From: Saprospiraceae bacterium
GTDB lineage: Bacteria > Bacteroidota > Bacteroidia > Chitinophagales > Saprospiraceae
Length of the DNA: 64,000 bases
Assembly (NCBI GenBank): GCA_020630435.1
Contig: JAHDBJ010000021.1
Location: 1-64,000 of the forward strand
Direction: 5' to 3'
A program made the translations under genes and the position numbers. A model generated the notes under the pieces. That model was given only the letters and a program-made list of their open reading frames with translations. It was not told the origin of the DNA and did not search any database. Positions 13,801 to 31,766 of this stretch are shown piece by piece. The first letter of the stretch is position 1. Each line of letters opens with the position of its first letter.

Positions 13801-14174
13801 GCGATTTCAACTTCGGAAAAATCACCTTCTAATAATTTTGTTTTAGTGCGATTGATAATATAACGCTCTCCCTCTTTTTCCACTATAAATAAATCCGTTT
13901 GTAATACCTTAAGGTCATCAAATTGAGGAGAAAACACTATTATCCCATCTCCATTAATCAAGCCAACTTTGCCATCATCCTGCACTAGAGCATAATTATA
14001 TTCATTAAATTCTCCAATAATATCATACTGAGGTTTATGTACGATAGTCCCCGATTTATCCATTAATCCCCAAAGTCGATTAACTTTAATAGGAAAATGA
14101 TCTTGAGCATAAAGCTGCATAGCTGTTACAAAAAACAGAGCTAAAAAGAAAAGGCGCATGAGAGAGTTTTTCAT
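10830..14174 (-). CDS. Very long WG-repeat protein, secreted or periplasmic
   Basis: The product is 1114 residues and made almost wholly of WG repeats, a beta-rich unit of about 45-50 residues. Examples are RLWGLMDKSG near the N-terminus and later FWGAVDKKG, KWGMIDEKG, YWGFIDQNG, KWGFIDLQG and KWGIINTKG, each followed by a segment such as PxxYDxIGxF. The start at 14174 is chosen over an upstream in-frame ATG at 14237 because it gives a normal signal peptide ending in MQLYAQ; the extra 21 residues would spoil it. There is no T9SS sorting domain, so periplasmic or outer-membrane-associated location is likely. WG-repeat proteins are common in Bacteroidota, and their function is not established. 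The gene runs convergent to the glucan operon and divergent from the amidase gene. Confidence 0.85.
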   Translation of the reverse strand: MKNSLMRLFFLALFFVTAMQLYAQDHFPIKVNRLWGLMDKSGTIVHKPQYDIIGEFNEYNYALVQDDGKVGLINGDGIIVFSPQFDDLKVLQTDLFIVEKEGERYIINRTKTKLLEGDFSEVEIAQNRFIFYTQNEKRACINFEGQKLLAPLYDDIFIYKNSYFQLEKGDSIGLATILGEVILEPIYKTFTIYKDQLFFYKKDRFWGAVDKKGTKVIDEKYNHYRPMFHYIKLIKNKFNVDLYDIKKEQIVNKNIYTDYQLLNEKLLLVTQNQKVGLMDLEGNEVLKPNYQQIQEFASEQFRVMKGGFWGLVKSGGEQIAPFSYDYISPLNERVSVFKKDPLYGILNIDGKEVVPAKFYKINLKKDKANAFLNEALEIILFDENGEIKEEDKIKKYAQIKLRKRNVRPVIRRSGGFAPDNIYVIGDYEWYYDAEIRKWGLKKLEDGSIQIKPVFDGVNIKRDLGLTVVFVDKISKYNFERTTYRFDRVYGVVNNKHGRMTTPVNMLDIQLEDFNRKELNVARIWTSDGRFGLMKKSGKIIAKGYAYIGTFNQGIARASKKGRLSGKMKQENIELGYLEHFLSRVDSPKDMEDFTKYDKRFKRKAQLYCSECLFGFIDTLAEEKIAFKYPYSEELTNGVIIVKNQNNKWGMIDEKGKELIPSEYQQVQFLARTDKNVVKLIRQEEKYGVIDTLGRLIAATMYDEIGTFAEGRLPVKRKGYWGFIDQNGKEVVPCRFKKIRPFSNGMAAVANGLKWGFIDLQGNQIIKTQYRHVGDFKEGLAWVATKIGVGFIDKKGVFTIPAQFNKAYDFNSDIARVKVGNKIGLIMRSGEFILSPKYRDISAFEKNDVAIVKTGGNKIRYILVNRRGERVGKHSFQKIFSFNEGIAKVKDNNLYGFVDVEGHLLLATDYDKVGDFSEGRAWVKKEGKCGYIDTTGEIIVPLEFNKCEDYQDGTALVFESPKKGGVLDREGDFILEPKLNKILAYSEDRGLMCDKRKRYYFISKSGDPYEGFYQDARPFKNKIAIVKIDGKWGIINTKGIPVVPTKYDKIGTFENGYAAIKISGFQGVTDLQGQTIVPAEYEYVSYAGNGLYRVEQGGKIGYFDTEGKWVWELKE

Positions 14175-14452
14175 AAAAACGAAGAAAAAAAGATAATCTA
14201 TATGTGTGACTGCAATAAAAATACGTGGTGCAACCAATTGGTATATCTATAATAATACAGAAATACCTAAAAAGTAACATTATCAATAATAAAATAGAAA
14301 ATATGCTGTTTGGGTTCAATCAATTTTGACTAAGTATAGATTCTTTTTGATAACATTGTTCAATTTATTCCTTCTCTTTTTTTAGCAGAATCACTATATT
14401 AGCTCGTTAGTTTTTATACACCGAATCGACTTACAAACTTAAACTTACAACT

Positions 14453-17400
14453 ATGAAATTCACTTTTACTTTATGTGTTCTTTTATCTTGTTTCTCTTTA
14501 TTTGCACAAAAGTCGCTAAATCAAGAAGATATAAAAATTTCTCTTAATAAGTATTTTAGTGATGAGGGCTTACGTTTATACCCCGATGAACACGCCTCTC
14601 ATGCAGACTATCTGTTCAAACAAACAACCTTAGATAAAATAGAAATTGACGGTCAAGCGACAAAAATCTTTTTAGATATTCCTCAAAAAACATTGCAAAA
14701 TGATTTTGACGAACACGCCATTGAAGACTATATTTTAGTATTACAAAATGAATTATTCAATTTAGGCGCGAATAGAGCTACTTTTTTAGTAAAGAATGAT
14801 TCCAATGATTATGTTGACTTAGTAGAATATATTCGAAAAGAAGAAGCACCGAGCCCTGTATATGTTACGCCCAGAAATGATGATCCTTTCCCTAATAGAG
14901 CTGGAGATTTAGAAAGAATAAAAAGTCGACGTTCTAATTTCCCCTATTTTGGTCAAGCACAGCCCTCAGGAGCTTTATCTGGTAAGACAGTATGGCTCAG
15001 TCCTGGTCATGGTTGGATTTATTATACATCATTGGGAACATTTTCGACTCAACGTGGTGAGACAAATGATATGGTTGAAGATTTTGGTACGACGGAATGT
15101 GTAACGTATTATTTGCTCAATTATTTGTGGAATGCAGGTGCAAATGTATGGATGGTAAGAGAACGTGATTATAATACAAATGAGGTAATTGTAAATAATG
15201 ATGATGGATCAGGGGGAGGCTATACAGAAACAGGTGCATGGACAACAAGCGGAAGTGGCGGATATAATTCGACTTATCGTTTTGTCAATAGTGGTTCTAC
15301 TGAAAGTGCTACGGCTACGTTTACCCCTACCATTCCTGAATCAGGCTGGTATTGGGTATCGGTTTATTTCCGTGAGGGGGCAAATCGCTCAGTAGATACC
15401 CGTTATACTGTACATCATGCTGGAGGTCAAACAACTGTTAGTGTTAATCAAGAAGTACATGGTCAGACATGGAACTATTTGGGACAATTTTATTTTGATG
15501 CAGGTAGTACAGGAAAAGTTGTTTTATCGAATCAATCTGGAGAAACGGGGCAGGCAATTATTGCAGATGCTGTTCGATTTGGAGGCGGAATGGGTAGTGA
15601 ACCTGATTGTGATGAACCTGCTCAAGGGCTATCAGGTAAGCCTCGTTTTGAGGAAGGAGCCCAATTATATACGCATTTTATGGGTTACCCTTCTTGTTAT
15701 GGTGATGTATCCATTCGTCCTAGATATGCAGAATGGGAGCTTTCTAAAGGTGCGGCATCAGAACAAAATGATTTAGCCAATGGCGATGTCAATTCTTTAT
15801 ATGTCTCATGGCATACCAATGCTGGAGGTGGTTCTGGAACGTCTTCGTTCATTTATGAACCAGGTACTGCTGGGACAAGTGATTCTGGTAGTCCCACTAA
15901 CTGCACTGGAAGTGCTGGTAATGCCAATGCTAGTGGTTATTTAAGAAATTATATCCATGATGAAGTTATTGATGATATCCGTACCTACTACGATGCTTCA
16001 TGGACCAATAGAGGTAAAAAGTGTGCTTATTTCGGTGAAATCAATCCTAGTTACTTGACAACAATGCCCAGTGCTTTATTTGAAATGGGATTCCATGATA
16101 ATGCAGCAGATGCCGAGGATATTACAACGCCTCGATTTAGGATGGTCGAAGCAAGAGCGGTCTATCAAGGAATTGTCAAATTTTTCAACCACTATGATAA
16201 TAGTATTCCTACGGTTTCGATTGCTGATGCCCCGACTCATTTGGTTGGTAAAAATGCTGGCTCAGGGCAAATCACCTTGACTTGGGATGCCCCTTCTACA
16301 ACTGATGATGGTGGTGCTGCAACTGCATATAAAGTCTATATGAGTACACATGGTAAGGGTTTTGCTGACGGCGTTGCTGTTGGTGGTACTTCATATACTT
16401 TTACAGGTTTAGCGCCTTCTACCAATTATTACTTCCGAGTAACTGCTACTAATGCAGGAGGAGAATCTTTTCCCACATCGGTTGTCGCTGTTCGGACGCC
16501 TCCAGCAGGTTCAACTGTAGCTCCTATTCTCATTGTAGATGGTTTTGACCGACTACAGCGTTCCCAAATGATTATTCAAACATCTAGTTCTCAATTAACC
16601 GATTTAAGAAGAGGTTTTTTGGAACGAATGAATAGTTATACGTATATGGTAGAACACGCTAAATCAATGTCTAATTGTATAGATTTAGGGTTTGATGGTG
16701 CTACAAACGAGGCTGTTATTGCAAATGATATTGCATTGACAGATTATGACTTAGTTGATTGGTTTTGTGGTGAAGAATCAACTAGTGATAGAACTTTAGA
16801 TGACACAGAACAAGCTAGAGTTCAGACCTTTCTTGACGGTGGTGGTTGTCTGATTATCTCTGGTGCAGAAATTGGTTGGGATATTGGTCGAAGTACTTCG
16901 GGGAATGCCGCTGTTTCTTTTTACAATAATTATTTAAAGGCCTCTTATGCTGGAGATGATGGCGGAACATATAGTTTCTCTGGTGCTGCTGCACCTTATT
17001 CAGGTACGAGCGGTACATTTGATGATAGTTCTTTGTACTATGATGTAAATTTCCCTGATAGGCTTGGAGCAGCGGGAGGTTCGAGTGTGGTTGTAAACTA
17101 TTCTGGTGGTACAGGTGATGGTGCTGCAACAGCTTATAAAGGTACAGATTTTGGAGTCGTTAATTTTGGTTTCCCCCTAGAAACAGTTACAAGCGAAAGT
17201 GTAAGAGATGAACTGATTTGTAATGCACTTAATTTCCTTTGTTCCGAAATATTAGCTGTTGAAGGTTTAGAACTTACAGGAACTGTAGAAAAGCGTCAAA
17301 ACAGGCTACAATGGTCTACATTAATAGAGACATCAACCGATTATTTTGAATTGCAAAAGAGTATTAATGGCTTTAGATATGAGACAGTTGGTAAGGTGGC

Positions 17401-17794
17401 TGCTGCGGGTAATAGTACTGAGCAACAGTTTTATGAATTAATTGATGAGTCACCATATCCTAAGACCTATTATCGAGTTAAAGTTATTAACCTTGATGGT
17501 ACAGTAGATTATTCTAATGTCATAGAGTTAAATCAAAACCAATTGTTAAGTGTTTCCTTATTTCCCAATCCAGCTTCAACAAACTTTATTAACCTGAGTC
17601 TTGATACAGATATTCAAGGTGCTGTAGAATTCCAATTGTTTGATGCCTTAGGAAAGCTAGTTGTTCAACAAAAGTGGGATAATGTCCAAGACAATTTCTA
17701 TTTTAAATTGCCTACTCTTTCTAGTGGCGTTTATAATTATAATATAAAAATTGACGACTTAGCCGTAAAAGGAGGAAAGTTTGTGAAGTTGTAG
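14453..17794 (+). CDS. Multidomain N-acetylmuramoyl-L-alanine amidase-like T9SS-secreted protein
   Basis: The protein has 1113 residues and a signal peptide (CFSLFAQ). An Amidase_3 zinc hydrolase fold carries candidate metal ligands His186 (SPGHG), Glu203 (RGETND) and His454 (SWHTNA), plus catalytic Glu544 (FEMGFHD). The fold is split by an insert at about 255-375 that resembles the golvesin C-terminal-type beta-sandwich. Next come a fibronectin type III domain (about 600-685), a glutamine-amidotransferase-like domain of the kind in proteins often labelled xanthan lyase (about 690-935), and a type A T9SS sorting domain (LFPNPAS to GGKFVKL). It is probably exported to the surface or medium and may cut peptidoglycan or a related polymer. 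The last 28 bp recur 2361 bp downstream, which suggests something inserted right behind this gene. Confidence 0.8.
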   Translation: MKFTFTLCVLLSCFSLFAQKSLNQEDIKISLNKYFSDEGLRLYPDEHASHADYLFKQTTLDKIEIDGQATKIFLDIPQKTLQNDFDEHAIEDYILVLQNELFNLGANRATFLVKNDSNDYVDLVEYIRKEEAPSPVYVTPRNDDPFPNRAGDLERIKSRRSNFPYFGQAQPSGALSGKTVWLSPGHGWIYYTSLGTFSTQRGETNDMVEDFGTTECVTYYLLNYLWNAGANVWMVRERDYNTNEVIVNNDDGSGGGYTETGAWTTSGSGGYNSTYRFVNSGSTESATATFTPTIPESGWYWVSVYFREGANRSVDTRYTVHHAGGQTTVSVNQEVHGQTWNYLGQFYFDAGSTGKVVLSNQSGETGQAIIADAVRFGGGMGSEPDCDEPAQGLSGKPRFEEGAQLYTHFMGYPSCYGDVSIRPRYAEWELSKGAASEQNDLANGDVNSLYVSWHTNAGGGSGTSSFIYEPGTAGTSDSGSPTNCTGSAGNANASGYLRNYIHDEVIDDIRTYYDASWTNRGKKCAYFGEINPSYLTTMPSALFEMGFHDNAADAEDITTPRFRMVEARAVYQGIVKFFNHYDNSIPTVSIADAPTHLVGKNAGSGQITLTWDAPSTTDDGGAATAYKVYMSTHGKGFADGVAVGGTSYTFTGLAPSTNYYFRVTATNAGGESFPTSVVAVRTPPAGSTVAPILIVDGFDRLQRSQMIIQTSSSQLTDLRRGFLERMNSYTYMVEHAKSMSNCIDLGFDGATNEAVIANDIALTDYDLVDWFCGEESTSDRTLDDTEQARVQTFLDGGGCLIISGAEIGWDIGRSTSGNAAVSFYNNYLKASYAGDDGGTYSFSGAAAPYSGTSGTFDDSSLYYDVNFPDRLGAAGGSSVVVNYSGGTGDGAATAYKGTDFGVVNFGFPLETVTSESVRDELICNALNFLCSEILAVEGLELTGTVEKRQNRLQWSTLIETSTDYFELQKSINGFRYETVGKVAAAGNSTEQQFYELIDESPYPKTYYRVKVINLDGTVDYSNVIELNQNQLLSVSLFPNPASTNFINLSLDTDIQGAVEFQLFDALGKLVVQQKWDNVQDNFYFKLPTLSSGVYNYNIKIDDLAVKGGKFVKL
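17766..17793 (+). repeat. Left copy of a 28-bp direct repeat (end of the amidase CDS)
   Basis: Twenty-eight bases, beginning TAAAAGGAGGAAAG and ending GAAGTTGTA, are identical to 20127-20154. This copy encodes KGGKFVKL, the last residues of the T9SS sorting domain, and runs into the TAG stop. The sequences before and after the two copies do not align apart from a shifted ATACTA just downstream. The two copies may be attL- and attR-like boundaries of an insertion. Confidence 0.85.
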
Positions 17795-19036: not shown

Positions 19037-19934
19037 ATATCTTAAAAAAGAAGAATATTAGTTGTTAAAAACTATAAATAGCAAAATTATAATAAAAAAA
19101 AGCATTTTATTATAATTTTTTTTTTCGTCAAATGTATCTGTTTAGTTTTATCCAAAATTATTTATCTATTGTATAAACAAAATACAACACAATAAACAAA
19201 AATCATTTTGACAAAAAAATTAAAAAAATATTATCAAAAAAAGGAAAAAGTATCAAAAGTTATCCATTTTGAATATTTTAAAAAAATTCATTTTGAACAT
19301 TGAATGTTTTTTTAAGTTTTTCTCCTATTATGGCATTTTTTGTAATTATCATATAAAATAATTAACTTTATTATAAAATTTTTATACAAAGGTATAATTT
19401 AATATAAAAAAGGAGATCCAAATAAATGAACCTCCCTATGGTTATGATTACAAACCAAACATTCGATTGCAGTATAAAAGTTTGCCGCTTTAGTCAAACA
19501 ATCGAACAATAGTATAAATCTACTAAAAAATTCTTACCCATAGAAGTTTATCCATTTTTTATTTCTCATTTTCGATATTATTCTGACATAACTTTCCAGC
19601 TAATTATTATCTAAAAAAATTTAATGTCTGATTAAATCATAAGGTCTCCTTTTCATCTTTTAATAATTTTATTTTGATAACTCAAAACTTCTTTAAAAAT
19701 GAAAAAGTCGTATTACAACGTAAAGCTTTTAAGAGCTTGTGGTTTATTTAATGATGAGAAGCCCAAAAAAAAATTCAAAAGTCCAAACTTAATTTCTATT
19801 TTATTTAAGGTAAATCCAAGAATTAGTTTTTTTTTCAAAAAACTCAACATATAAAAAATTTGAGCATATTAATTGAAATAATATCTATTTACTCTTTAGA
19901 TTATCTTCAAATAGTTTAAATTAAAACTAATAAA
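19037..19934. other. AT-rich intergenic region with a structured element
   Basis: About 900 bases of very AT-rich DNA lie between the HTH gene and a small membrane-protein ORF. At 19462-19506 an 8-bp inverted repeat (TTCGATTG/CAATCGAA) encloses a second short stem (GTTTG/CAAAC), with the related half-sites followed by GTATAAA. A 28-codon ORF starts at 19426 (MNLPMVMITNQ) and overlaps this element, so at most one of the two is likely to matter. A 51-codon ORF at 19699 is listed separately. No tRNA, rRNA or recombinase gene is visible. Confidence 0.4.
19699..19854 (+). CDS. Possible small basic protein (51 residues)
   Basis: An ATG-started ORF encodes a very basic peptide that starts MKKSYYNVKLLRACG and has a KPKKKFK patch. 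It has no homologue I recognise. It lies in the repeat-bounded segment, 80 bp before another small ORF on the same strand. In DNA this AT-rich an ORF of this length could occur by chance, so coding status is doubtful. Confidence 0.25.
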   Translation: MKKSYYNVKLLRACGLFNDEKPKKKFKSPNLISILFKVNPRISFFFKKLNI

Positions 19935-20129
19935 ATGGAAACAATAGTAGCAATTCTCATGGCAATTATTTTAGGGATCCTATTAGGAGTCAGTCATACA
20001 AATAATAATAATAGTAATAACACAAATTTTCTTTTATGGATTATTCTATTACTAATAATAGCCTATTTGATTACAGACCATCAACTCTTTTTTTCTATAA
20101 GAGATAATTATGATTTTTCAATCAAATAA
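19935..20129 (+). CDS. Small hydrophobic protein with two predicted membrane segments
   Basis: The ORF encodes 64 residues. Hydrophobic segments lie at about 4-20 (IVAILMAIILGILLGVS) and 32-47 (LLWIILLLIIAYLI), separated by an Asn-rich loop (NNNNSNNTN). Its TAA stop (20127-20129) is formed by the first three bases of the right copy of the 28-bp repeat, so the ORF ends exactly at the inferred boundary of the inserted segment. No family recognised. Small two-helix proteins occur among toxins, holins and membrane sensors, but nothing here points to one of these. Confidence 0.4.
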   Translation: METIVAILMAIILGILLGVSHTNNNNSNNTNFLLWIILLLIIAYLITDHQLFFSIRDNYDFSIK

Positions 20130-20154
20130 AAGGAGGAAAGTTTGTGAAGTTGTA
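20127..20154 (+). repeat. Right copy of the 28-bp direct repeat
   Basis: This copy is identical to 17766-17793. Read in the corresponding frame it would again encode KGGKFVKL followed by a stop (TAA instead of TAG). No long ORF enters it from upstream in that frame, so it is a stranded duplicate of the amidase gene's 3' end. Confidence 0.85.
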
Positions 20155-20174
20155 AAATACTACAAAACCCATAA

Positions 20175-20211
20175 ATAAAAAAGAGGCTGTCTCCTAAAAG
20201 AGACAGCCTCT
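20175..20211 (-). terminator. Rho-independent terminator (second in tandem)
   Basis: A perfect 12-bp stem (AGAGGCTGTCTC/GAGACAGCCTCT) with a 6-nt loop is followed on the minus strand by TTTTTTATTTAT. It backs up the stronger terminator at 20455-20498 for the operon coming from 31766. Before the proposed insertion it would also have stood directly behind the amidase gene. Confidence 0.7.
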
Positions 20212-20454
20212 ATACAGCTATTCCTAAAATAAAGTCTATCTCATATAGACTTGTACAAAAACAAAAATTTCCTATTAACCTCTCTTTTCTTTTTATTTTT
20301 ATCCTAAAAAATAAAAGTAGAGTGACAAAAAATTTATTAATACAAGTATAAGGGTATTACTAATAGAAAAAAACTTAAAATGTATAAACGCTCTTATTTG
20401 ATGTATATCTGCATAGTTTTATCTTTTCATATTTTTTCTAGGAGTAATAAACAT

Positions 20455-20498
20455 AAAAAATTGGTCTTGTTCTGTGGATGTAACAAGACCAATTTTTT
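20455..20498. terminator. Strong bidirectional terminator after the SprB-repeat gene
   Basis: A perfect 17-bp inverted repeat starts AAAAAATTGGTC, has a 10-nt loop and ends in six T residues on either strand. It lies 57 bp past the stop codon of the minus-strand SprB-repeat gene. Nothing else is seen in 20212-20454. Confidence 0.85.
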
Positions 20499-20555
20499 AG
20501 CTAAGAATTTGTTTAAACAAGCTTTAATTACAACGATTTATTTTCAAAAAATACT

Positions 20556-22766
20556 TTATTTTTGTCCTATATGCACAATTTTATGAGAAGATTGTTTTCC
20601 ACTACTATCCTTTACATTAATTTGATATATACCATCTGGCAAATTTTTATCTGGTGTAATCTGAATTAGATTTTTGGCACTGTCCACGATATGCTCTGCT
20701 TGATAAATGCGTTCATTTAAAACATTATAAATTTCTATCAATAAATTATCCTTCTGTGCTGATTGAATTTCAATATTTATCTGTTCCGTAAATGGGTTTG
20801 GATAAATGGATTGAACGATATTTAATGTTGTATTCGTTCCATCTGTTCTTAAAGCCCCCCTAGTATTTAAAACTTGAGATAAATTATCTTTCTTACCTGC
20901 ACAATTTTTAAATGAATTAAGTAGCTCATCTGTACCAGGATCATAGACTCCATTTCCATTTTCATCACAATAAATATATCGAACACCACACATACAATCA
21001 CACAATTCATCGTATTCAGCAACTATTTGATTCATATATATCCATTCACTTGGCAAGTCATGGGTTAAGGGTTCGAAATTATTCTCAGGCATAGCTCCAA
21101 ATTCACAAGTTCTTATTCTATTACACCAATACCAAGTTCCCATATATAGTGTTGCATCGTCAGGGTGAAATCCATCTTGAGTAGAACCACTATAAAGGGT
21201 TTCATTTAGGTCACCCGTATACCAGTTGAATGAATGCTCAGAGCCTGGACAAAAAATTTCAACTTCGCAATCATTATTATCGAATTTAAATTCCAAATCA
21301 TTTCTGAATTGTACTTGTGGTTGCATTACTTCATCTGTTGTTAAACAAACCAAATCTAAGTATTGACAAAAGTCTGGATTGGGTCGCAACTCCGTCTCTC
21401 CTTCTTCATATAAAGCAGTAACTTCTTCACCATTACAGAAGTATCGAATCCCACAATCATAGGTATTGGTTATCTCTTGAGTCGTCAAAGGATTGGAAGT
21501 TCCAATGGTAAAAGTACCTGATATTTCACATCCTTTATCATCCGTAATTGTATAGTTATAGGTTGTTGCAGCCATTTTTAAATTAATGTCTATGTAACTA
21601 TTGCTCTCATCAACTATTCCACTAATAATATTAATCGATCCAGGTAAATTAATTGAAACAGTATAAGGCGCTACACCTCCAGAGATTGTAAAAGATACAT
21701 CACCATGAAAAGGAGCATCTGGACAAGCATCTGTTATATCAAAATCTACACTCATTTCGTTAACTTCTCCAACAGTAAAACAAGCATCCGATAAACAATC
21801 ATAATGGTTCGTAATCGACACACAATAGGTTCCAGGAGCGAGATTATACCTATCTCTACTTGTATTTCCGTCAGACCATAAGTATTCCCAACCTAAATCA
21901 TTGCCACTTAACGTTTCCAAGACGATAGAACCATTATCAATATCTGGGCAACTTGGTTCTATATCTGCGGTGAAATCAGGATCAGATAAAGCATAAACAA
22001 ACATACTAATAGCTTTATAACAACCATTATTATCTGCAACGGTTACAGAATGAATTCCTGCTGTTGCATTTTCTACACTAGAACCATCTTCTCCTGCAAC
22101 GGTACTATTACTATTCCAATAATAAGTATAAGGAGGTGTTCCTCCTTCTACTGTAAGACTAATACTACCATTACCTGGTATTTGAGCACAAGAACTAGAT
22201 GCTGAATAAAAAATTTCTGGTCCATCACCAATATCAAAACATTCTGTACTATAGCATCCTGTATTTCCATCTGTTACGGTTAAACAATACTCTCCTATAG
22301 AAAGATTATCACGATGTTGAACTGTTGCTCCATCATTCCACAAATACTGAAAATTACCACCACCACTTGGATATACATGAATATATCCTAATGTAGGCGT
22401 AAAATAGGCATCATAACAAACACCTTGTTGTGAAGTGCCGATATTTATAGGTTGACAAACACTCACATAAGTATCTATAATTGTTTCACAATCTGTATAA
22501 TTATTATAAACACTTACTGTATAATTCCCAGCACATAACCCTTCTATATCTTCTTCAGTTGAAGTAAAACCGTTTGGTCCCTCCCACTGGAAACTAAAAG
22601 GACCAGCACTTCCATCAGCTATTATATCTATTGTCCCATCACATTCTCCAACATTACTTGGGGTGCTAGCATCTAATTCTATCTGAGCATCAATTGTAGA
22701 AGCTACTAACATTATTGAAAACAACATTAGATATACATTTAGATTACACATTCGAAATATTTTCAT
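20556..22766 (-). CDS. SprB-repeat protein with T9SS type A sorting domain
   Basis: The protein has 736 residues and a signal peptide ending STIDAQ. At least five SprB-like Ig-type repeats follow, recognisable by GGxxPYTYYWN or FQYLWNDG, a middle loop, GxYCLTVTD and pairs of Cys. A Cys-rich region (about 455-625) ends with a YCDENGNGVYDPGTDELL segment. A type A sorting domain closes it (SIYPNPFTEQ to KIVHIGQK). It should be exported by T9SS and anchored or released at the surface. SprB-type repeats are found in gliding adhesins. It is the last gene of the five-gene operon, 16 bp after the 331-residue protein gene, and could be a surface partner for the three proteases. Confidence 0.85.
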   Translation of the reverse strand: MKIFRMCNLNVYLMLFSIMLVASTIDAQIELDASTPSNVGECDGTIDIIADGSAGPFSFQWEGPNGFTSTEEDIEGLCAGNYTVSVYNNYTDCETIIDTYVSVCQPINIGTSQQGVCYDAYFTPTLGYIHVYPSGGGNFQYLWNDGATVQHRDNLSIGEYCLTVTDGNTGCYSTECFDIGDGPEIFYSASSSCAQIPGNGSISLTVEGGTPPYTYYWNSNSTVAGEDGSSVENATAGIHSVTVADNNGCYKAISMFVYALSDPDFTADIEPSCPDIDNGSIVLETLSGNDLGWEYLWSDGNTSRDRYNLAPGTYCVSITNHYDCLSDACFTVGEVNEMSVDFDITDACPDAPFHGDVSFTISGGVAPYTVSINLPGSINIISGIVDESNSYIDINLKMAATTYNYTITDDKGCEISGTFTIGTSNPLTTQEITNTYDCGIRYFCNGEEVTALYEEGETELRPNPDFCQYLDLVCLTTDEVMQPQVQFRNDLEFKFDNNDCEVEIFCPGSEHSFNWYTGDLNETLYSGSTQDGFHPDDATLYMGTWYWCNRIRTCEFGAMPENNFEPLTHDLPSEWIYMNQIVAEYDELCDCMCGVRYIYCDENGNGVYDPGTDELLNSFKNCAGKKDNLSQVLNTRGALRTDGTNTTLNIVQSIYPNPFTEQINIEIQSAQKDNLLIEIYNVLNERIYQAEHIVDSAKNLIQITPDKNLPDGIYQINVKDSSGKQSSHKIVHIGQK

Positions 22767-22782
22767 AATATTATTTTTTAAA

Positions 22783-23778
22783 CTAGTTATCAGTTGGTAC
22801 TTCTTTTTTATTACGAAATAGATTATCTAATTTTCGTCTTTCTTTCAGGTATTCTCTTTCCGTCAATAAGTTGTTCTTCATTTTTCTATATAGAATACTA
22901 TAGAATAAAGGCTTTAAATATTTTTGAAGAACTTTCGATTCTTGAATTTCTATCCCTTTAAGTAAATTGTGTGCTTTTTTAAAGTGTTCTTCTTTCGCCA
23001 TTTCTTGGGTATTTGCTTGATAGATTAAGTATTTTACAAGTTGTACTTTTGCCCAAGTCGCATATTTTGATTTTGGATACTTCTCAATGATAATATTTAG
23101 CTCTTCTACCATCTTTTTATTTCCATCTTTAAAAAGCCCCCAACTATCTCTTAAAATTGGATATTCATATACTAAATGTGGCACCGCACGAGTCTTTAGC
23201 CATTTTTGAGCTTTAGCTTGCTCCTTGTTTTGGGGTTTTAAATTTAAACTAAGTTCGTTAGATACAATTTGATTTTTTTTGTCCCCTATAAATGGATAAT
23301 AAACTGCTCTTATCCGATATTTTTTATACTGATTTAGTAAATAATTCGTAGAATTTGCATTACCTTTTGAAGCTAAATAGACAAAGTCTTTGGAAATAGA
23401 TTCTTTAGGCTTTAAATCATTTTTTTTAATTTTAGTGAACCCTTTATGAATACTTGAACTGTACTTAATGCGATAGCTAATATCAGAACCTTTAAGTTTG
23501 ATCCACTTTTTTTTCTTTGAGTCATAGAACTGCAACTCAGGTAATTGTTGTAGGGCAAAAGGTGTTTTTATCTGATAAGAAGCACTATCAGAATGATTTT
23601 CTAGGCTTATTTTGTAAAAAATCGGTTCAATATATGAGGATATAGGCTCATTTAGACTAAGACTCAATTTTACATCTGTGAGCAGATTTTCTATATCCTC
23701 TTGTGCGTAACTGCTCAAACAAGTTATTAATAAAAAAATATTCAGCAATGCCAATTTTATATTACTCGAATATGTCAT
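22783..23778 (-). CDS. Secreted protein of unknown function (331 residues)
   Basis: The signal peptide ends SSYAQ. Residues 30-190 look like an Ig-type beta-sandwich (LSLNEPISSYIEPIFYKISLENHS; then SNELSLNL near its end). The C-terminal part is helical and Lys-rich, with a TPR-like pattern (IIIEKYPKSKYATWAKVQLVKYL). No sorting domain or lipobox is seen, so the periplasm is the likely location. It sits between the third protease gene (42 bp upstream) and the SprB-repeat gene (16 bp downstream), which argues for a shared task, but no enzyme activity can be assigned. Confidence 0.6.
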   Translation of the reverse strand: MTYSSNIKLALLNIFLLITCLSSYAQEDIENLLTDVKLSLSLNEPISSYIEPIFYKISLENHSDSASYQIKTPFALQQLPELQFYDSKKKKWIKLKGSDISYRIKYSSSIHKGFTKIKKNDLKPKESISKDFVYLASKGNANSTNYLLNQYKKYRIRAVYYPFIGDKKNQIVSNELSLNLKPQNKEQAKAQKWLKTRAVPHLVYEYPILRDSWGLFKDGNKKMVEELNIIIEKYPKSKYATWAKVQLVKYLIYQANTQEMAKEEHFKKAHNLLKGIEIQESKVLQKYLKPLFYSILYRKMKNNLLTEREYLKERRKLDNLFRNKKEVPTDN

Positions 23779-23820
23779 ATTATCTTCTTTTAATTTTTTA
23801 AACTTTTTCTTTCTACACCA

Positions 23821-26457
23821 TTACTCCTGTCCTGGACTATTCATTCTTGACCGAATCAGATTGATATGTCGAGGGATGAAAGAATTTGGTTCAGCATTAT
23901 TAGCATCATTAGACCCCGATCTCATCAATCCTATATGTGGGTATTCTGATATTTGAGATCCAAAATCAAATACTCCATCTCCATCAGAATCTATCTCGTC
24001 TCCATGTGTAAGTCCAAATTGATGACCGATTTCATGGGCAACGGTATGAGGTTCAGATCTAACAGAAGGAAAATTTAGTATACCATCATGGTGTGTCTCT
24101 ACAAAATACATTGATAGATCTCCTCCTACTGATAAATTTTTATTATGTGCCTTTCCAAGTGTCAAGCCCAAAAGATAATCTTCACTATTGGGATCTCCAT
24201 CGACTTTAAAATCCCCCTGCCAACCTGACGAGATGTAAGCCACCCAAAAATATTGTGTCTCAATAGACTTAGATTCATGCACGGCATTGAGGTCAGTTTC
24301 AAAATCATTCGTATCAATTGAATAATTCTCTCTAAAAGGAAGTTTATTTACATTTCCACCATTTTCTGCTGATAATCCTCCTCCATCATTTACAGGAAGG
24401 ATATAGGCCTTACTAAAAGCCTTTATAGTAGTTGACAAATCGACATTATGTGGTAATGCATTTGCAGATTCTTCTTGATCATCATCCCTTACAACAATTG
24501 GTATATAGAGGTTATTTGTCAATAAGGTATTTTCATTTTCAATAGCCGTGATCATACTATTAATACCAATAATTGAATTTCCTATTCTAATAGTCCCTCC
24601 TAAGAACTCTGCTAAAGTTACTCCTCCAGATAGGTTTAACTCCCATCTATAATTGGTATTCACTTTCGTTATATTACCAAGGGTAGCTTGAATGACATAG
24701 CCCGCTTCGGGATGGGTGAGTTCGCATTTGAGTCCCGAAATACTTAATGGATTTATAAACGTAATACTAGTATTATCATTAGATTCGATATTTCCTGATG
24801 TAACAGATCCTGTATCTGTATTGCCTTCAAAATTTGTAACTCCAAAAATCACTTTCCCATTCTCAAAACGTCCCCCGATGCTTGGATCTACTAATGTGCT
24901 AGTCGGATTACTAAGGTCTGTATTTACTGTTATTTTCTTTATTTTTGTAGGGTCGTCAGTATCTAGTTTTAAATTTCTTGCATATGTAAAAATTTGCTGT
25001 GTATACATTCCATATTTAAAATTTAGCATCGACTCGCTTTCTATATGTAATAAGCGCCATACTGTAAGAACTGGCGAAGTATATTTTTTCGACTTTTGAA
25101 CTGTGCCTGCTTCAGGATCTTTTATATCAAAGCCATCTACTTTATCCTTATTCCTAAGGTTTTTTAAGAAATCATAATCTCCATTGGCGACTAGGCGGTA
25201 ATTATCTCCTGCAAATTGAGAAGTTTTAAACCAACGCTTGATGGATGATAAATTGGGATTAACAGCGATAGCGACTATACCATTAAGATCCTGACCATTT
25301 ATATAGCCAAACTTATAGGAATTTTCGCCTTTGGTGACAACTCCTCTGTTGTCATTTTCCCTAGTATAGGTTAGTCCTGTATTCCCTGAGTATTTTCCTT
25401 CGTTTGTAAAAATTAACGCTGTAGGATTATCATTCGGATCGATGAATTTAGTATCCTTGGAGGGATCATCTACATCTAAAGTTCTAACATATATTTTAGT
25501 TCTTCTTAAAAAGGGAACTGTAAGCGTAACTTTGAAGGAAACATAGTCTTTTGGCTTAGTAGGAGCTTCTTTACGTGCATCTGGAAATACACGATATCCC
25601 TTTAGCCCTCCTTCAGGAAAATTGGGATCGACATCCAAAAAATCAGACGTGTGATATGGATGAGCATAACCATTTTTATTTCCAAACCACTCTATTTTTT
25701 CTATACCAATAATTGTAATAGCTACTTTATCTGTACAAGATAATTCATCTTCTAGTGTAAGCAATTCAAGTACTGTGGCTTGTTGCTCAATATGAGGCTT
25801 TATGCCTTCTACCCATAATTCTCCTTTATATTGATTGCCATCTTCTTCTAATATAAGCGTAGTACCTAATTCATATAGATCTCCTTTAGATTCTTTTTTA
25901 AATATTCTAATATAATCCTTGCCTTCAAGAGCCTTGATAATTACACTTTCTTTACTTGAATTTATTTCTAATCGCATTAATTCGTCATCTCCTGTTTCGA
26001 CTATTTCACTCTCATTATCAAAATATTTATTCTCATCGTCATTGTCTAAATTGACAAAAGTTTGAGCGCCGATAGACTCTTCTTCTTCTTCTGAAATAGG
26101 TAGATATTCTTCATTATCATCAAAAGTTACTTTAGCATCATAAATTGTTAGATTCAACAACTCATCTATTACATTTACTTCAACCTCTTCTGTTGCAATA
26201 AGCTGCCCATCATTGTTTGTGACATTAAGGCGATAAGCTGTTGATTCTTCTGGACAAACTATCGCTGTGGAGGCTGTTGAAATTGTATTTGATGTATCAT
26301 CTATCCATTTATAACAGTAACCATCGATTGGATTTTTTCCTAATTCTACACAACCACCTCTACAAATTTTTTGGTTTGAACCTGTATAAACTTGACTGTA
26401 AATCAAAAACGGGGAGGTGAAAAATAAGATAAAAACTAAAATAGTTATGTATTTCAT
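23821..26457 (-). CDS. Secreted metzincin-type zinc metalloprotease, paralogue 3 of 3
   Basis: The protein has 878 residues and a signal peptide ending FLIYSQ. Residues 22-105 are a Cys-containing Ig-like domain (KICRGGCVELG...YCYKW). An acidic stretch (PISEEEEESIGAQ) follows at about 120-140, then a long beta-rich region with SQFAGDNYRLVANGD and VWRLLHIESESML. Near the C-terminus is the zinc site HEIGHQFGLTH (His808, Glu809, His812, His818). A DSDGDGVFDFG calcium-type loop and a Met-turn candidate (IGLMRSG) come after it. It ends RHINLIRSR plus PGQE, not in a T9SS sorting domain. It lies 31 bp after paralogue 2. The substrate is unknown. Confidence 0.8.
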   Translation of the reverse strand: MKYITILVFILFFTSPFLIYSQVYTGSNQKICRGGCVELGKNPIDGYCYKWIDDTSNTISTASTAIVCPEESTAYRLNVTNNDGQLIATEEVEVNVIDELLNLTIYDAKVTFDDNEEYLPISEEEEESIGAQTFVNLDNDDENKYFDNESEIVETGDDELMRLEINSSKESVIIKALEGKDYIRIFKKESKGDLYELGTTLILEEDGNQYKGELWVEGIKPHIEQQATVLELLTLEDELSCTDKVAITIIGIEKIEWFGNKNGYAHPYHTSDFLDVDPNFPEGGLKGYRVFPDARKEAPTKPKDYVSFKVTLTVPFLRRTKIYVRTLDVDDPSKDTKFIDPNDNPTALIFTNEGKYSGNTGLTYTRENDNRGVVTKGENSYKFGYINGQDLNGIVAIAVNPNLSSIKRWFKTSQFAGDNYRLVANGDYDFLKNLRNKDKVDGFDIKDPEAGTVQKSKKYTSPVLTVWRLLHIESESMLNFKYGMYTQQIFTYARNLKLDTDDPTKIKKITVNTDLSNPTSTLVDPSIGGRFENGKVIFGVTNFEGNTDTGSVTSGNIESNDNTSITFINPLSISGLKCELTHPEAGYVIQATLGNITKVNTNYRWELNLSGGVTLAEFLGGTIRIGNSIIGINSMITAIENENTLLTNNLYIPIVVRDDDQEESANALPHNVDLSTTIKAFSKAYILPVNDGGGLSAENGGNVNKLPFRENYSIDTNDFETDLNAVHESKSIETQYFWVAYISSGWQGDFKVDGDPNSEDYLLGLTLGKAHNKNLSVGGDLSMYFVETHHDGILNFPSVRSEPHTVAHEIGHQFGLTHGDEIDSDGDGVFDFGSQISEYPHIGLMRSGSNDANNAEPNSFIPRHINLIRSRMNSPGQE

Positions 26458-26488
26458 ATAATTCCCTTGTTTAAGTTGTAAATAAATA

Positions 26489-29131
26489 CTATTGCCCCGG
26501 ACCTAATCTCCTAGAACGAATTAAATTAATATGACGAGGGATAAAATAATCTATATCAACGCTGTTTAATTCATTTTTCCCACTTTTCATTAAGCCGATA
26601 TTAGGATACTCTAATATTGCAGGACCATAATCAGGTATTCCATCTCCATTATTATCTGCATCATCTCCGTGAGAAAGACCAAACTGATGACCAATTTCAT
26701 GGGCAATAACATTAGGCTCAGGCATTTTTTGTACTGAAGGACTGTTAAGCATATAATCATGTTGTGTTTCCATAAAAACCATAGATCCATTTCCACCAGA
26801 TTTTAATTCTTCATTATGGACAATAGAATAGGTAAGCCCGTTAAGAAAAGTTTCTTGATTATTATCTCCATCAGCTAAAAAATGATCTTGCCAACCAGAA
26901 GAAATATAAGCTATCCAGAAAAATGGAGTTTCCTTTGTTTTAGAATGATGAAAGTTATTTATATCATTATTAAAATCAATCCCATTAGAATCGTAATTTT
27001 CTTTAAAAGACAGTTCATTTACATTCCCTCCTTCTTCTTCTGTTAATCCTCCACCATCGTTAACAGGCAACACATATGCTTTACCAAAAGCACTAATTGT
27101 TATAGAGAGATCTAATTGATGTGGTAATATATTTGCAGTCGGACTTCTATCATCATCTCTTACAACAATAGGGATATACACCTCTTCTGTCAATGCCATA
27201 TTTGGCTCTTCTATTGAATTTATGATAGTACTAACACCCAAGTCTCCAATTTTTATTGAACCTCCTAAATAGGGTTCTAGGGTTATCTCTTCAGGAAGAC
27301 TCAAGTCCCATTTATAATCATTATTTATTTTCGTTAAGTTATTGATAGTAGCTTGGAGGATACTACCATCGATTGGATTTGTTATTTCGCAGGCAAGCCC
27401 TTGTATACTTTGAGGATTTTTAAATTTAATATTATATTCTTGATTTTCTTCTATCAGTCCTGATGTTATGGAACCTGCATCTATGCTACCATTTGTACTC
27501 GTTACACCAAAGTGTACATATCCATTTTCAAAACGCCCTCCAACACTTGGATCTAATAAAGAGCCTGTGGGATTAGTAAGGTCTACATCTACAGAAATTT
27601 CTTCAATTTTAGTAGGATCTGTATTAGCTGATTTAAAATCTGTTATATAAGTAAATATTTGTTGTGTATATAGTTCATATTTGAAATTTAGCATTGATTC
27701 GCTTTCTATATGTAATAATCTCCAAACTGTAAGTACTGGTGAGGTATATTTTTCCCATTCCTGTACAATACCTGCTTTGGGATCTTTTATGTCTAGACCA
27801 TCTACTTTATCTCTATTTCTAAGATTTTTTAAAAAATCATAGTCTCCATTTGCTACAAGTCGATAATTATCACCTGCATAATGAGAAACTTTGAATACTA
27901 GATGTATATTTGACATATTAGGAGAAATTAGCACGGTAGCAATTCCATTTAAATCTTGTCCGTTGATATATCCAAACTTATATGATTGTTTCCCAACATT
28001 AATCAATCCTCTATTGTCATTTTCTTTAGTGTATGTCAGTCCTGCTTTCCCTGAATATTTACCTTCACTAGAAAGGATTAGAGATAAAGGATGATCGTTA
28101 GGGTCTATAAATTCTGTATCCTCTGATGGATCATCAACATCTAACGTTCTAACATAGAAGATTCCTTTTCTTACAAAAGGAACACTAAGAGTGATATAAC
28201 AAAAAACAACATCTCTAGGCTTAAGCGTATTTTTTGTCCTTGCTCCTGGAAAAACACGATAACCTTTTAATGTACCTGCTGGAAAATTTGGATCAATATC
28301 TAAAACTTTAGCTTCATGATTTGGTGGAGTAAACCCATTGTAATTGCCCAGCCATTCTAGGCTTTCTATTCCTACTATAGTTATCGCAACCCGTTCTCCA
28401 CAAGCTAATTCATCCTCCGTAGCAATCAATTCAAGTATAGTAGCTTTTTGTACTGTATGTGCTTCTATACCTTCTACCCATAGCTCTCCTTTATAAAGTC
28501 CTCCATCTTGCTCTAGCTCTATTTCTGTACCTAATGTATATTCTTCACCTTTAGTCTCTTTTTTAAACACTTTAATATATTCTTCACCTTCAATGGCATC
28601 TACTATTACACTTTTTTTGCTTGAACTTATTTCTAGTTTTATTAATTCATCATCTTCCGTTTCAACCATTTCGCTTTCATTATCAAAATATTTGTTCTCA
28701 TCATCATTGTCTAAATTGACAAAAGTTTGAGCACCAATTGATTCCTCTTCTTCTTCACTTACAGGCAAGTATTCCTGATTATTTATAAAAAAAACTTTGG
28801 CATCATAAATTGTTAGATTTAAAACTTCATTTATAACGGTTACATTGACTTCTTCTTCGGCTATAAGTTGTCCATTACCATCTGTTATATTGAGAAGATA
28901 TAATTCCGATACCTCTGGGCAGGCTGTAAGAGTAGAAGAAGTTGAAAGTGTTTCTCCCGCCTTATTTGTCCATTTATAACAATAATCTTCATCAGAATCA
29001 TATCCTAAGACTACACACCCCCCTTTACATATTTCCTGATCTGGTCCTGTATATTCTTGAGCATACATTGAATTTATAAAAACGAAAAAGAGAATGGGAA
29101 TAATAATAGTTATCTGTTTCATGTTATTCAT
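26489..29131 (-). CDS. Secreted metzincin-type zinc metalloprotease, paralogue 2 of 3
   Basis: The protein has 880 residues with a signal peptide ending SMYAQ and the same domain order as its two neighbours. The zinc site is HEIGHQFGLSH (His811, Glu812, His815, His821), followed by DNNGDGIPDYG and IGLMKSG. The region around SEEEEESIGAQTFVNLDN is almost identical in all three copies, while the loops upstream of the zinc site differ, so substrate range may have diverged. An alternative ATG at 29122 would shorten the leader by three residues. It starts 25 bp after paralogue 1 and is co-transcribed with it by spacing. Confidence 0.8.
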   Translation of the reverse strand: MNNMKQITIIIPILFFVFINSMYAQEYTGPDQEICKGGCVVLGYDSDEDYCYKWTNKAGETLSTSSTLTACPEVSELYLLNITDGNGQLIAEEEVNVTVINEVLNLTIYDAKVFFINNQEYLPVSEEEEESIGAQTFVNLDNDDENKYFDNESEMVETEDDELIKLEISSSKKSVIVDAIEGEEYIKVFKKETKGEEYTLGTEIELEQDGGLYKGELWVEGIEAHTVQKATILELIATEDELACGERVAITIVGIESLEWLGNYNGFTPPNHEAKVLDIDPNFPAGTLKGYRVFPGARTKNTLKPRDVVFCYITLSVPFVRKGIFYVRTLDVDDPSEDTEFIDPNDHPLSLILSSEGKYSGKAGLTYTKENDNRGLINVGKQSYKFGYINGQDLNGIATVLISPNMSNIHLVFKVSHYAGDNYRLVANGDYDFLKNLRNRDKVDGLDIKDPKAGIVQEWEKYTSPVLTVWRLLHIESESMLNFKYELYTQQIFTYITDFKSANTDPTKIEEISVDVDLTNPTGSLLDPSVGGRFENGYVHFGVTSTNGSIDAGSITSGLIEENQEYNIKFKNPQSIQGLACEITNPIDGSILQATINNLTKINNDYKWDLSLPEEITLEPYLGGSIKIGDLGVSTIINSIEEPNMALTEEVYIPIVVRDDDRSPTANILPHQLDLSITISAFGKAYVLPVNDGGGLTEEEGGNVNELSFKENYDSNGIDFNNDINNFHHSKTKETPFFWIAYISSGWQDHFLADGDNNQETFLNGLTYSIVHNEELKSGGNGSMVFMETQHDYMLNSPSVQKMPEPNVIAHEIGHQFGLSHGDDADNNGDGIPDYGPAILEYPNIGLMKSGKNELNSVDIDYFIPRHINLIRSRRLGPGQ

Positions 29132-29156
29132 TTGTTTTAGTTAGGCATATCTATTT

Positions 29157-31766
29157 TTACTCTTCTTGTCCAGGGCTTAGTTTCCGAGATCGAATCAAAT
29201 TGATATGTCGAGGGATAAACATAGAAATTTCTGTACTATAGACCCCCATTAATCCCATAGCAGGGTATTCGGGTACATTTGGATCTCCATCATAGAGACC
29301 ATCACCATCCAAATCCGCTCCAGTATCTCCATGATCTAAGCCGAATTGATGACCAATTTCATGAGCAATAATGCTCTGCTTATAATTATTAGGAACTTGA
29401 GCATCTTTAATTACTTCTTTTAGATAAATTGAAATATCTCCACCTTTTGAAAGATTTGTATTATGAACGGTTGCATATGTTTGACCAACAGGTACATATT
29501 TTTCATCATTTGGATCTTTGTCAACATCATAGTCTGCTTGCCAAGCAGCCGCAAGATATGATGCCCAAAAATATTGAGTTTCATTCGTTTTTGAATGATT
29601 TACCTCCTTAAGCTTTCCTGTATAATCATCTGTTGTTATATTTTCTATAAAAGAAAGTTCATTTTTATTTTCTACACCAGCGCCATCAACAACAGGTAAG
29701 ACATAAGCCTCTCGAAGTGCTTTTTTAAGCACCTTGAAATCAGACGCTAATTCTTCATGCTTTTGAGGTAAGACATTATCTTCAGGGCTTTGATCATCAT
29801 CTCTTATTATTACTGGAATAAAAAGTTCTTCGGTAATACAAGAAGTATTATTCTGTATTTCCGTTATATCCATTTCGATTGCTGTTAATTCTGAACCAAA
29901 TCGAATAGTTCCTCCTGCAAAATTGAGTAAATTAAATCCACTAGGAAGCATGAGATCCCATTCAAATGTAGTATTTCCTCCTGCAGAAATTTTGATAATA
30001 TTATTGATTGTTACATCTGTCGTTACGGTTCCTGTAGCATTTGTTATTTCACCGAAAAGTCCAGCAAGGTTTAAAGTAGACTCAAACTCAATACTATTTG
30101 CTTCATTTTCTTTTATTAGACCAGGAAAAATTTGTCCTCCTCCTCCAGAATAACTATTCGGAGCGAAAATAACATAGCCATTTTCAAATCTTCCAAATCC
30201 TACAGAAGAATCAACCATGCTCCCTGTTGGATTTGTAAGATCGGTTTCGACTGCAACCACCCCAATAGATGTTGCCTGATTAACACCTTCTAATGATACA
30301 AAATTTGTAACATAGGTAAATATTTGTTGAGTATATAGACCATATTCAAAATTTAGCATCGATTCACTTTCAATATGTAATAACCTCCATACAGTAAGGA
30401 CAGGAGAAGTATAATCAGATTCATTTTGGACAACCCCTGACTTTGGATGTACGATATCCATACCATCTAAAACATCAGCATTTCTTAACTTTACTATAAA
30501 ATCTCTATCTCCATTTGCTACTAGACGATAATTATCACCAGCATAATGAGAAACTTTAAATTTTTGGATAGAAATGTTCGTCGTTGGATTGAAGAATAGT
30601 GTCTTTATGCCATTATTATCTTGGCTGTTCATAAACCCAAATTTATATCCCAGAGCAAATCCTCTATTATCATTATCTATATCATATTCTAGTCCAGCCT
30701 CTCCAGGATATTCGCCATTCCCTCCCTCATCATTTGGATCAATAAACTTGATGTCAGTTGAAGGATCATCAATATCAAAAGTTCTGACATATAATCTAAC
30801 ATTTCGAACAGGTTTAACTGTCAAAGCAACTTTAAAGACAACCCAGTCTCTCGGTTTTTTTACATCTTCTATTCGAGCTCCTGAAAAAACTCTATAGCCT
30901 TTAAGCTCACCAGTTGGAAAACTTGGATCTATATCTAAGATATCCGAATCATGAAATGGCTCTTTAAACCCGTTTCCTTTGCCGTTCCAAGATATTTTCT
31001 TTATTCCTAGTATCGTAATGGCTACTTTATCTGTGCACGAAAGTTCACCTTCTAAAGTCATTAATTCTAGTATGGTAGCCTTTTGTTCCGTGTGTGGTTT
31101 TAGCCCCTCTACCCATAATTCCCCCTTATATAAACCATCACTATCTTCTTCTAAAAAAAATGTTGTACCTAAATCATATGAGCCATCTTTCATTTCTGTT
31201 TTAAATATTTTAATATAATCCTCCCCTTGAACTGCTTGAAGTATAATACTTTTCGCACTAGAACTTATTTCAAGCCTAATCAGTTCATCATCTCCACTTG
31301 CTATTACATTAGCATCATCATTATCAAAATATTCATCTCCATCATCGTTATCTAAATTTACAAAGGTTTGAGCACCGATTGATTCTTCTTCCTCTTCTGA
31401 TACAGCTTGATATTCTTCCGTTTGACTAAACGTTACTTTAGCATCATATACGGTCAAATTTAAAACCGCATCAATAACACTTACTTCAACTTCTTCTTTA
31501 ACAATAAGATCTCCTTTTTGATCTGTAACATTAAGGTAATAATTTTGTGTCTCTTCTGGACAAACCGTTATGGTAGAGGATGTTGAAATTGTTTCCAACG
31601 ATTGATTCATCCATTTATAGCAATAATTAGCTACAGGAGCTTTGCCAAGTATGACACAACTCCCTTTACATATTTTTTGGTTTGGTCCTGTATAAATTTG
31701 ACTGTTTGCTTCTTCTATAAAAAAAAAAGAAAATACAATTAACAGTAAAGTACTGAAATACTTCAT
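29157..31766 (-). CDS. Secreted metzincin-type zinc metalloprotease, paralogue 1 of 3 (first gene of operon)
   Basis: The protein has 869 residues with a signal peptide ending EEANSQ. The zinc site is HEIGHQFGLDH (His802, Glu803, His806, His812), followed by an Asp-rich loop (DLDGDGLYDGD) and the Met-turn candidate MGLMGV. It differs from the other two by a Gly-rich stretch (SYSGGGGQIF), a shorter loop after the RTFDIDDPS segment, and a longer C-terminus (SPGQEE). It leads the operon. Upstream, CAAAACTA at 31838-31845 is a minus-strand TAnnTTTG match, but no TTG lies at the right distance, so the promoter is uncertain. Confidence 0.8.
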   Translation of the reverse strand: MKYFSTLLLIVFSFFFIEEANSQIYTGPNQKICKGSCVILGKAPVANYCYKWMNQSLETISTSSTITVCPEETQNYYLNVTDQKGDLIVKEEVEVSVIDAVLNLTVYDAKVTFSQTEEYQAVSEEEEESIGAQTFVNLDNDDGDEYFDNDDANVIASGDDELIRLEISSSAKSIILQAVQGEDYIKIFKTEMKDGSYDLGTTFFLEEDSDGLYKGELWVEGLKPHTEQKATILELMTLEGELSCTDKVAITILGIKKISWNGKGNGFKEPFHDSDILDIDPSFPTGELKGYRVFSGARIEDVKKPRDWVVFKVALTVKPVRNVRLYVRTFDIDDPSTDIKFIDPNDEGGNGEYPGEAGLEYDIDNDNRGFALGYKFGFMNSQDNNGIKTLFFNPTTNISIQKFKVSHYAGDNYRLVANGDRDFIVKLRNADVLDGMDIVHPKSGVVQNESDYTSPVLTVWRLLHIESESMLNFEYGLYTQQIFTYVTNFVSLEGVNQATSIGVVAVETDLTNPTGSMVDSSVGFGRFENGYVIFAPNSYSGGGGQIFPGLIKENEANSIEFESTLNLAGLFGEITNATGTVTTDVTINNIIKISAGGNTTFEWDLMLPSGFNLLNFAGGTIRFGSELTAIEMDITEIQNNTSCITEELFIPVIIRDDDQSPEDNVLPQKHEELASDFKVLKKALREAYVLPVVDGAGVENKNELSFIENITTDDYTGKLKEVNHSKTNETQYFWASYLAAAWQADYDVDKDPNDEKYVPVGQTYATVHNTNLSKGGDISIYLKEVIKDAQVPNNYKQSIIAHEIGHQFGLDHGDTGADLDGDGLYDGDPNVPEYPAMGLMGVYSTEISMFIPRHINLIRSRKLSPGQEE

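Follow-up and report, generated by a model that had tools for sequence, protein, structure and literature searches.

The reading that we favor, and consider reasonably likely, is that an operon of a Saprospiraceae bacterium encodes a secreted metzincin, probably dependent on calcium, and a partner protein dedicated to inhibiting or escorting it; in Saprospiraceae a T9SS surface protein goes with the two. What gives this layout its meaning is more the pairing of protease and partner than the presence of three protease copies. The operon lies in a stretch of 64,000 nucleotides (the window), and its genes are listed here in transcription order, followed by a candidate terminator.

29157..31766, minus strand: MP1, putative secreted metzincin-type protease, 869 aa, operon gene 1 (ORF, Pfam, alignment; zinc motif DNA at 29341-29363)
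26489..29131, minus strand: MP2, MP1 paralogue, 880 aa (ORF, Pfam, alignment; zinc motif DNA at 26679-26701)
23821..26457, minus strand: MP3, paralogue, 878 aa (ORF, Pfam, alignment, model; zinc motif DNA at 24014-24036)
22783..23778, minus strand: 331-aa putative secreted partner (ORF, model; homologues directly 3' of proteases in other phyla)
20556..22766, minus strand: 736-aa SprB-repeat protein with type A T9SS sorting tail (ORF, Pfam, NCBIfam)
20182..20211, minus strand: terminator-like stem (13 pairs) and T run, 345 bp past the 736-aa gene (consensus scan)

Operon layout and the three protease copies

All five ORFs begin with ATG, with intergenic gaps of 25, 31, 42, and 16 bp in transcription order. 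The initial annotation had described three neighboring, tightly spaced, full-length protease paralogues with intact zinc sites, followed at close spacing by a secreted 331-aa protein and a T9SS SprB-repeat protein; ORFs, alignment, and motifs confirm the first part, and the 42- and 16-bp gaps the second. The layout goes beyond chance, because contig C50 of the same genome repeats it as a complete 1:1:1 cassette encoding an 891-aa protease, a 330-aa protein, and a 721-aa protein with SprB repeats and tail, separated by 17 and 3 bp. The C50 protease is 44-46% identical to each window copy, and the 330-aa and 721-aa proteins are 40% and 41% identical to the window's 331-aa and 736-aa proteins, respectively.

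The terminator-like stem is a possible end of the operon, the consensus scan giving seven such sites in the region against 4.6 expected. A promoter scan found 70 sites against 69.7 expected, with no excess over chance, and Rfam at gathering scores has no match within the window. By eye, an enolase-like gene lies 340 bp upstream of the operon. On the 3' side is a 1.5-kb stretch (19037-20555) of 22% GC that lacks any ORF of 100 aa and contains two terminator-like stems on the minus strand. Other genes in the window encode an N-acetylmuramoyl-L-alanine amidase with a T9SS tail and Golvesin-C and fn3 domains by Pfam (14453-17794, plus strand), possibly a cell-wall-degrading surface enzyme near the operon; a 1135-aa protein with WG repeats (10830-14237, minus strand); and a secreted M43 pappalysin-like metalloprotease, of another family, with a CBM26 domain and a T9SS tail (61791-63911, plus strand).

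The three proteases are alignable end to end; MP2 and MP3 are 54 and 55% identical to MP1 and 62.5% identical to each other. They have in common HEIGHQFGLxHGD and, later, YPxxGLM, and a degenerate DNA pattern for HEIGHQFG has three matches in the whole genome assembly, which are MP1, MP2, and MP3. All three contain the metzincin zinc motif HExxHxxGxxH/D. Among 23 aligned relatives the first His and the Glu are present in all rows, and the second His, and HExxH as a whole, in 22; the third zinc ligand position is His in 20 and Asp in three, and the glycine of the motif is absent from some non-family rows, such as L048 and L049. A Met-turn methionine follows the zinc motif, and 21 of 23 rows have Met at this position. 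In the catalytic part, Pfam Reprolysin_4 matches just above its cut-off and over 22-31 residues only, and the PDB profile matches of the protease lie around the zinc motif only (best E value 0.0025).

The three copies are old and constrained. Pairwise dN is 0.27-0.38 and dS 1.38-1.63, values that do not fit the recent neutral duplication that the initial annotation had considered, and dN/dS is ∼0.2, a rough figure because dS is close to saturation. In a tree of 18 rows the window copies form one clade (98/96) with MP2 and MP3 as sisters (100/99), and the C50 protease joins them (100/99). Compared by domain, as had been proposed, the copies diverge most at residues 541-600 (31-52% identity), then at 656-790, the half of the catalytic part before the zinc motif (43-59% identity), and are most alike at 421-480 (72-88% identity). 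This pattern is compatible with diversified targets and equally with relaxed constraint.

The 736-aa protein contains SprB repeats (Pfam E value 9.9e-20, 70.3 bits against a cut-off of 28) and a C-terminal Por_Secre_tail (E value 2.3e-9), as expected of a type A T9SS cargo. Neither MP1-3 nor the 331-aa protein has a Por_Secre_tail or other T9SS tail in Pfam and NCBIfam at E values up to 1, in a genome with at least 150 tail matches (150 of 207 candidates scored); the proteases end in SPGQEE, GPGQ, and SPGQE. The idea that the proteases are T9SS surface proteins is thus not borne out, and their surface location is unproven because they lack the tail. The triplication also does not stand as a defining feature, since no other examined locus has more than one intact-looking protease, and among the loci examined the window alone has three intact proteases sharing one partner.

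A protease-partner pair in distant phyla

Protease searches used the part after residue 97, because the N-terminal Ig-like domain alone explains most of the listed matches; matches in 107 of 198 genomes, mostly to that domain alone, were set aside. In a draw from the same family, 11 of 398 genomes match the protease (E values up to 1e-6), ten of them strongly; seven of 396 match in the order draw, one over the PAD_M-like part only; and in the phylum draw the window's own genome is the sole match of 395. Two candidates per genome were scored in these draws, so some matches may be missed. A protease pattern scan of a contig collection (84,980 species) gave 20 loci, in Saprospiraceae, Acidobacteria, Phycisphaerae, Pirellulales, Hydrogenedentota, Zixibacteriota, Kiritimatiellae, Nitrospinota, Omnitrophica, Chthonomonadaceae, Robiginitomaculum, Ponticaulis, Methylococcaceae, Flavobacteriaceae, and Bacteroidota. 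A scan of the collection with two patterns, both from the N-terminal part of the protease, gave no match, and no relatives of MP3 were found on 72,556 plasmid records. By these searches, the protease family is rare and widely scattered.

The 20 loci, together with the window, C50, G212, G348, G375, G433, G281 C1, G281 C12, G206, and G438, make 30 distinct loci, with L053 (identical in sequence to G094 C58) and L055 (identical to G258 C169) each counted once. Thirteen are Saprospiraceae loci: 12 of the window's family (f1), and L046, which is labelled Saprospiraceae and not placed in f1. Among these, the protease is broken in G281 C1 (L084), matches the model only in part in G281 C12 (L085), and runs into, or ends near, the contig end in L074 and L086. 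G277 (partial match, E value 2.5e-7) and G129 (PAD_M-like part only) were excluded as protease loci.

A 331-type gene lies directly downstream of the protease in 22 of the 30 loci, at a gap of -4 to 81 bp. It does so in 13 of 13 Saprospiraceae loci, where the partner is about 260-330 aa long, and in nine of the 17 others (L047, L048, L049, L050, L051, L052, L058, L060, and L062, from about eight phyla). The eight loci that lack it, all outside Saprospiraceae, are L054, L056, L057, L059, L061, L063, L064, and L065; L054 is so counted with a similar-looking gene 946 bp downstream, and the L074 partner, which is interrupted by a stop, is counted as present. A partner profile made from Bacteroidota only, set against 1162 ORFs, picks out the downstream gene in Acidobacteria (E value 5e-24), Kiritimatiellae (8e-11), Nitrospinota (2.5e-7), Omnitrophica (8e-7), and Phycisphaerae (3e-4), and so supports five of the nine outside partners at E values below 1e-3; of the other four, L050 and L060 score at E values of about 6, and L049 and L062 are absent among the matches listed. 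In a leave-one-out profile test, 20 of 20 partners were recovered (E values 5e-3 to 4e-27). In 18 of these, no ORF of the locus scored better than the downstream gene; in the other two (L051 and L084) it came second, behind a further partner copy. The test used 20 of the 22 partners, leaving out the window's and that of L055, which nearly duplicates L053; for L080 and L085, but not for L084, close relatives were removed together.

The window's own genome has two full-length 331-type genes, both adjoining proteases (window and C50), and elsewhere one partial match to the helical part of the partner. In the family draw, 45 of 398 genomes match the partner profile at E values up to 1e-3. The strong matches (E values below 1e-17) comprise all ten strong protease genomes and four genomes with no detected protease (G468, G104, G023, and G312), in which no protease was found beside the partner gene in the flanking stretch examined; the other 31 genomes match more weakly (E values 1e-8 to 9e-4), mostly in part. 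As judged from these sequences, then, every protease locus in the family has a partner, and the partner is not always with a protease. In G104, two tandem secreted paralogues of ∼600 aa (L123:3949-8451, plus strand), with no Pfam family, are encoded 6 bp upstream of the orphan partner gene.

A third gene of the SprB/T9SS type, or its remnant, is present in 11 of the 11 Saprospiraceae loci long enough to judge, some of them by eye; L081 and L074 end too early and are not among the 11. It has SprB repeats and tail in the window, C50, L046, L080, and L086, whereas in L083 the tail is present with SprB not above the limit; in L082 it is cut by the contig end and has an Ig_7 match only, and L053, L055, L084, and L085 have remnants recognized by eye. 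In L050 (13328-16804) and L062 (9469-15207) the third place is taken by large, partly related secreted proteins with a squalene-cyclase-like toroid and CARDB, disintegrin-like, or thrombospondin repeats. The search for the gene set in other genomes that the initial annotation had advised reveals a real, recurring unit. Homologues do occur singly, a circumstance that the annotation had named as weighing against its reading, but in Saprospiraceae they occur together with the SprB-type and 331-type neighbors, whose absence it had also named.

Several loci have irregular arrangements. G281 C1 carries two partner copies and a broken protease. L127:1207-3141 and L128:1228-3162 contain tandem partner genes with no protease; their genomes are G094 and G258, which also show signs of a duplicated cassette. 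The contig ends of L045 / L053 (G094 C58, 6216 bp) are identical over 99 bp, and an open frame at one end of G094 C58 continues into the protease at the other end, which fits either a small circular cassette or a tandem array of cassettes that has been collapsed. In Kiritimatiellae (L051:13698-16576), a decayed second protease is followed by a 580-aa protein resembling two partner units in a row.

Predicted folds and known systems

The MP3 model (23 aligned sequences, mean pLDDT 77.8) was divided, with boundaries of our own setting, into an Ig-like part (∼24-97), an Asp-rich PAD_M-like part (∼98-262), a conserved middle (∼262-480), and a catalytic part (∼656-878). Residues 19-455 resemble human peptidylarginine deiminases (PADs) in Foldseek (E value about 3e-8), where the best 50 rows are mostly PADs and the first is an axoneme chain. 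In a structural match to PAD2 (Z 12.6, rmsd 5.3, 222 residues), the best 50 rows are all PADs. The match involves mainly the N and middle domains, and rows stopping at residue 252 keep ∼200 aligned residues; the N-terminal part occupies the fold-search rows. Residues 19-455 of the modelled protease thus resemble the PAD_N/PAD_M fold. The likeness is one of fold in a predicted model, because sequence searches find no PAD: the proteases have no PAD_M match, the window proteases have no Pfam match to the PAD_C catalytic domain at E values up to 1, and profiles of protease and partner against the PDB have no PAD and no protease inhibitor among the rows shown.

In the PAD_M-like part, N136, D138, D140, and D141 (MP3 numbering) are invariant in 23 of 23 rows and D147 is conserved in 22, and this Asn/Asp cluster would fall on PAD calcium sites. 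The window proteases differ from PADs in ending with a metzincin-type domain. According to the available text of one study, the PAD middle domain binds calcium, and bacterial PADs can carry divergent PAD_M domains (PMC8826395). The secreted G129 protein (L140:1-2604, minus strand), cut by the contig end, has an Asp-rich PAD_M-like module, by eye perhaps two. Because the available part of this protein has the module with no zinc motif, the module may be more widespread.

The partner (model of 11 sequences, mean pLDDT 74.5) has by eye a signal-peptide-like start and is predicted to comprise an Ig-like domain (∼36-179) and TPR-like helices (∼185-321). The helical half has weak sequence matches to CpoB (E value 2e-4) and BamD (0.03). 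Structural neighbors of the Ig half include Spo0M (Z 8.1), IPI (3isy; Z 7.7, 20% identity, 111 residues), and chain residues 23-155 of the zinc protease entry AsaP1 (Z 7.0-7.4), which are presumably the AsaP1 propeptide. The scores are tied, at a level that unrelated Ig folds often reach, and so point to inhibition without showing it. The 331-aa protein has no Pfam BsuPI match, and chagasin is absent from the best 50 fold rows of the partner, which excludes nothing. A defense-system reading was dropped, as PADLOC has no match to the proteases or the SprB protein; its sole match is a weak one to AbiEi (E value 0.001) over partner residues 220-330.

As the initial annotation had supposed, no described system with this layout was found in the set of open-access papers searched for SprB and metalloproteases in Saprospiraceae, or for metzincins and SprB. 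Serralysin is a secreted metzincin with a small periplasmic envelope inhibitor encoded nearby, whereas the window proteins have no serralysin repeat domain or known inhibitor family (Pfam, E values up to 1). By analogy, the closest known system in working principle is potempin/KLIKK, some KLIKK proteases being metzincins. As the accessible portions of two reports describe it, the KLIKK proteases of Tannerella forsythia are also Bacteroidota secreted proteases in gene clusters, most beside an inhibitor-lipoprotein gene (PMC4404884, PMC7296668). The KLIKK proteases described in these portions have a near-identical C-terminal domain (PMC4404884, PMC7296668), whereas those of the window have no such domain and do not end in KLIKK. 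Potempin genes are there said to directly precede the protease genes (PMC7296668), whereas the partner gene here lies 3' of the protease, and the partner differs from potempins so described in having Ig and TPR-like halves and recurring in other phyla. Bacillus subtilis IPI/BsuPI has in common with the partner's first half a predicted Ig-like fold (PMC3901451), and the partner differs in its extra TPR-like half as well as in Pfam. In its available text, that paper reports IPI against subtilisin, a serine protease, itself questions whether IPI is truly an inhibitor, and includes among IPI homologues proteins with signal peptides and cell-surface domains (PMC3901451).

Roles of the partner and the third gene

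The locus is probably an expanded copy of an old cassette of protease and partner, with the SprB-repeat gene as third member in Saprospiraceae. The protease would cross the inner membrane with its long N-terminal part, and the partner would bind it in the envelope, holding it inactive or escorting it until release. Outside the cell, the Asp-rich PAD_M-like domain would bind calcium and order the enzyme; such calcium gating, suggested by the predicted model, is a tentative proposal that we nonetheless take seriously. Within the window, the protease gene would have been copied twice, with one partner and one SprB gene serving all three, in which case the partner should recognize a surface or feature common to the copies. 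The SprB-repeat protein would be a surface neighbor of the protease, as anchor, substrate, or prey-binding part. This third gene is linked to the protease by its position in the loci of one family, and the genome has many SprB repeats (60 matches). The partner's tie is to the protease, as the two also occur together where no SprB-type gene was seen. Conservation of the pair across distant phyla suggests that the partner probably controls or escorts the protease.

What the partner does is a more tentative matter. That it inhibits the protease is a fair guess from genomic context and predicted folds, short of an expectation. That it is instead a chaperone, secretion escort, or substrate-binding subunit is slightly less likely. 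The TPR-like half, with its weak CpoB and BamD matches, is a type of protein-binding scaffold, and orphan partner copies exist without a protease; on the other side, the Ig half has among its neighbors a protease inhibitor and the N-terminal stretch of a protease entry, at scores tied with those of other Ig folds. The most specific version, in which PAD-type N and calcium domains gate a secreted metzincin and a cross-phyla Ig-TPR inhibitor guards three diversified enzymes in the window, we regard as unlikely to hold in full.

The surface protease complex of the initial annotation, with three copies of diversified targets serving predation or competition, is rather improbable. The copies are old and constrained with most change in residues 541-790, they are in one operon with a T9SS SprB-type protein, and duplications occur in other loci (G281 C1, G094/G258, and L051), all of which would suit it, but the proteases lack T9SS tails and the intact triplication is seen in the window only. 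It is less probable still that the proteases act on their own SprB-repeat neighbor, in its maturation or turnover; the third gene or its remnant does follow in all testable Saprospiraceae loci, but the pair occurs in phyla with no SprB-type gene seen in third place, and L050 and L062 have another kind of protein there. Plain nutritional proteases with co-transcribed neighbors, and a partner with no functional tie, would accord with the sparse distribution (11/398 in the family, 7/396 in the order including one partial match, and the own genome of 395 in the phylum). We consider this very improbable, as about eight phyla besides Bacteroidota have retained the pair.

If the favored reading holds, the operon represents a metzincin family whose zinc motif is all that Pfam and NCBIfam recognize, and a matching partner family, linked to it across phyla, for which there is no fitting Pfam or NCBIfam model. 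The reading would add a protease-inhibitor pair and would show that a calcium module of the deiminase type can occur in a different class of enzyme. The three-to-one ratio of the window would then be a natural test of one partner controlling several proteases.
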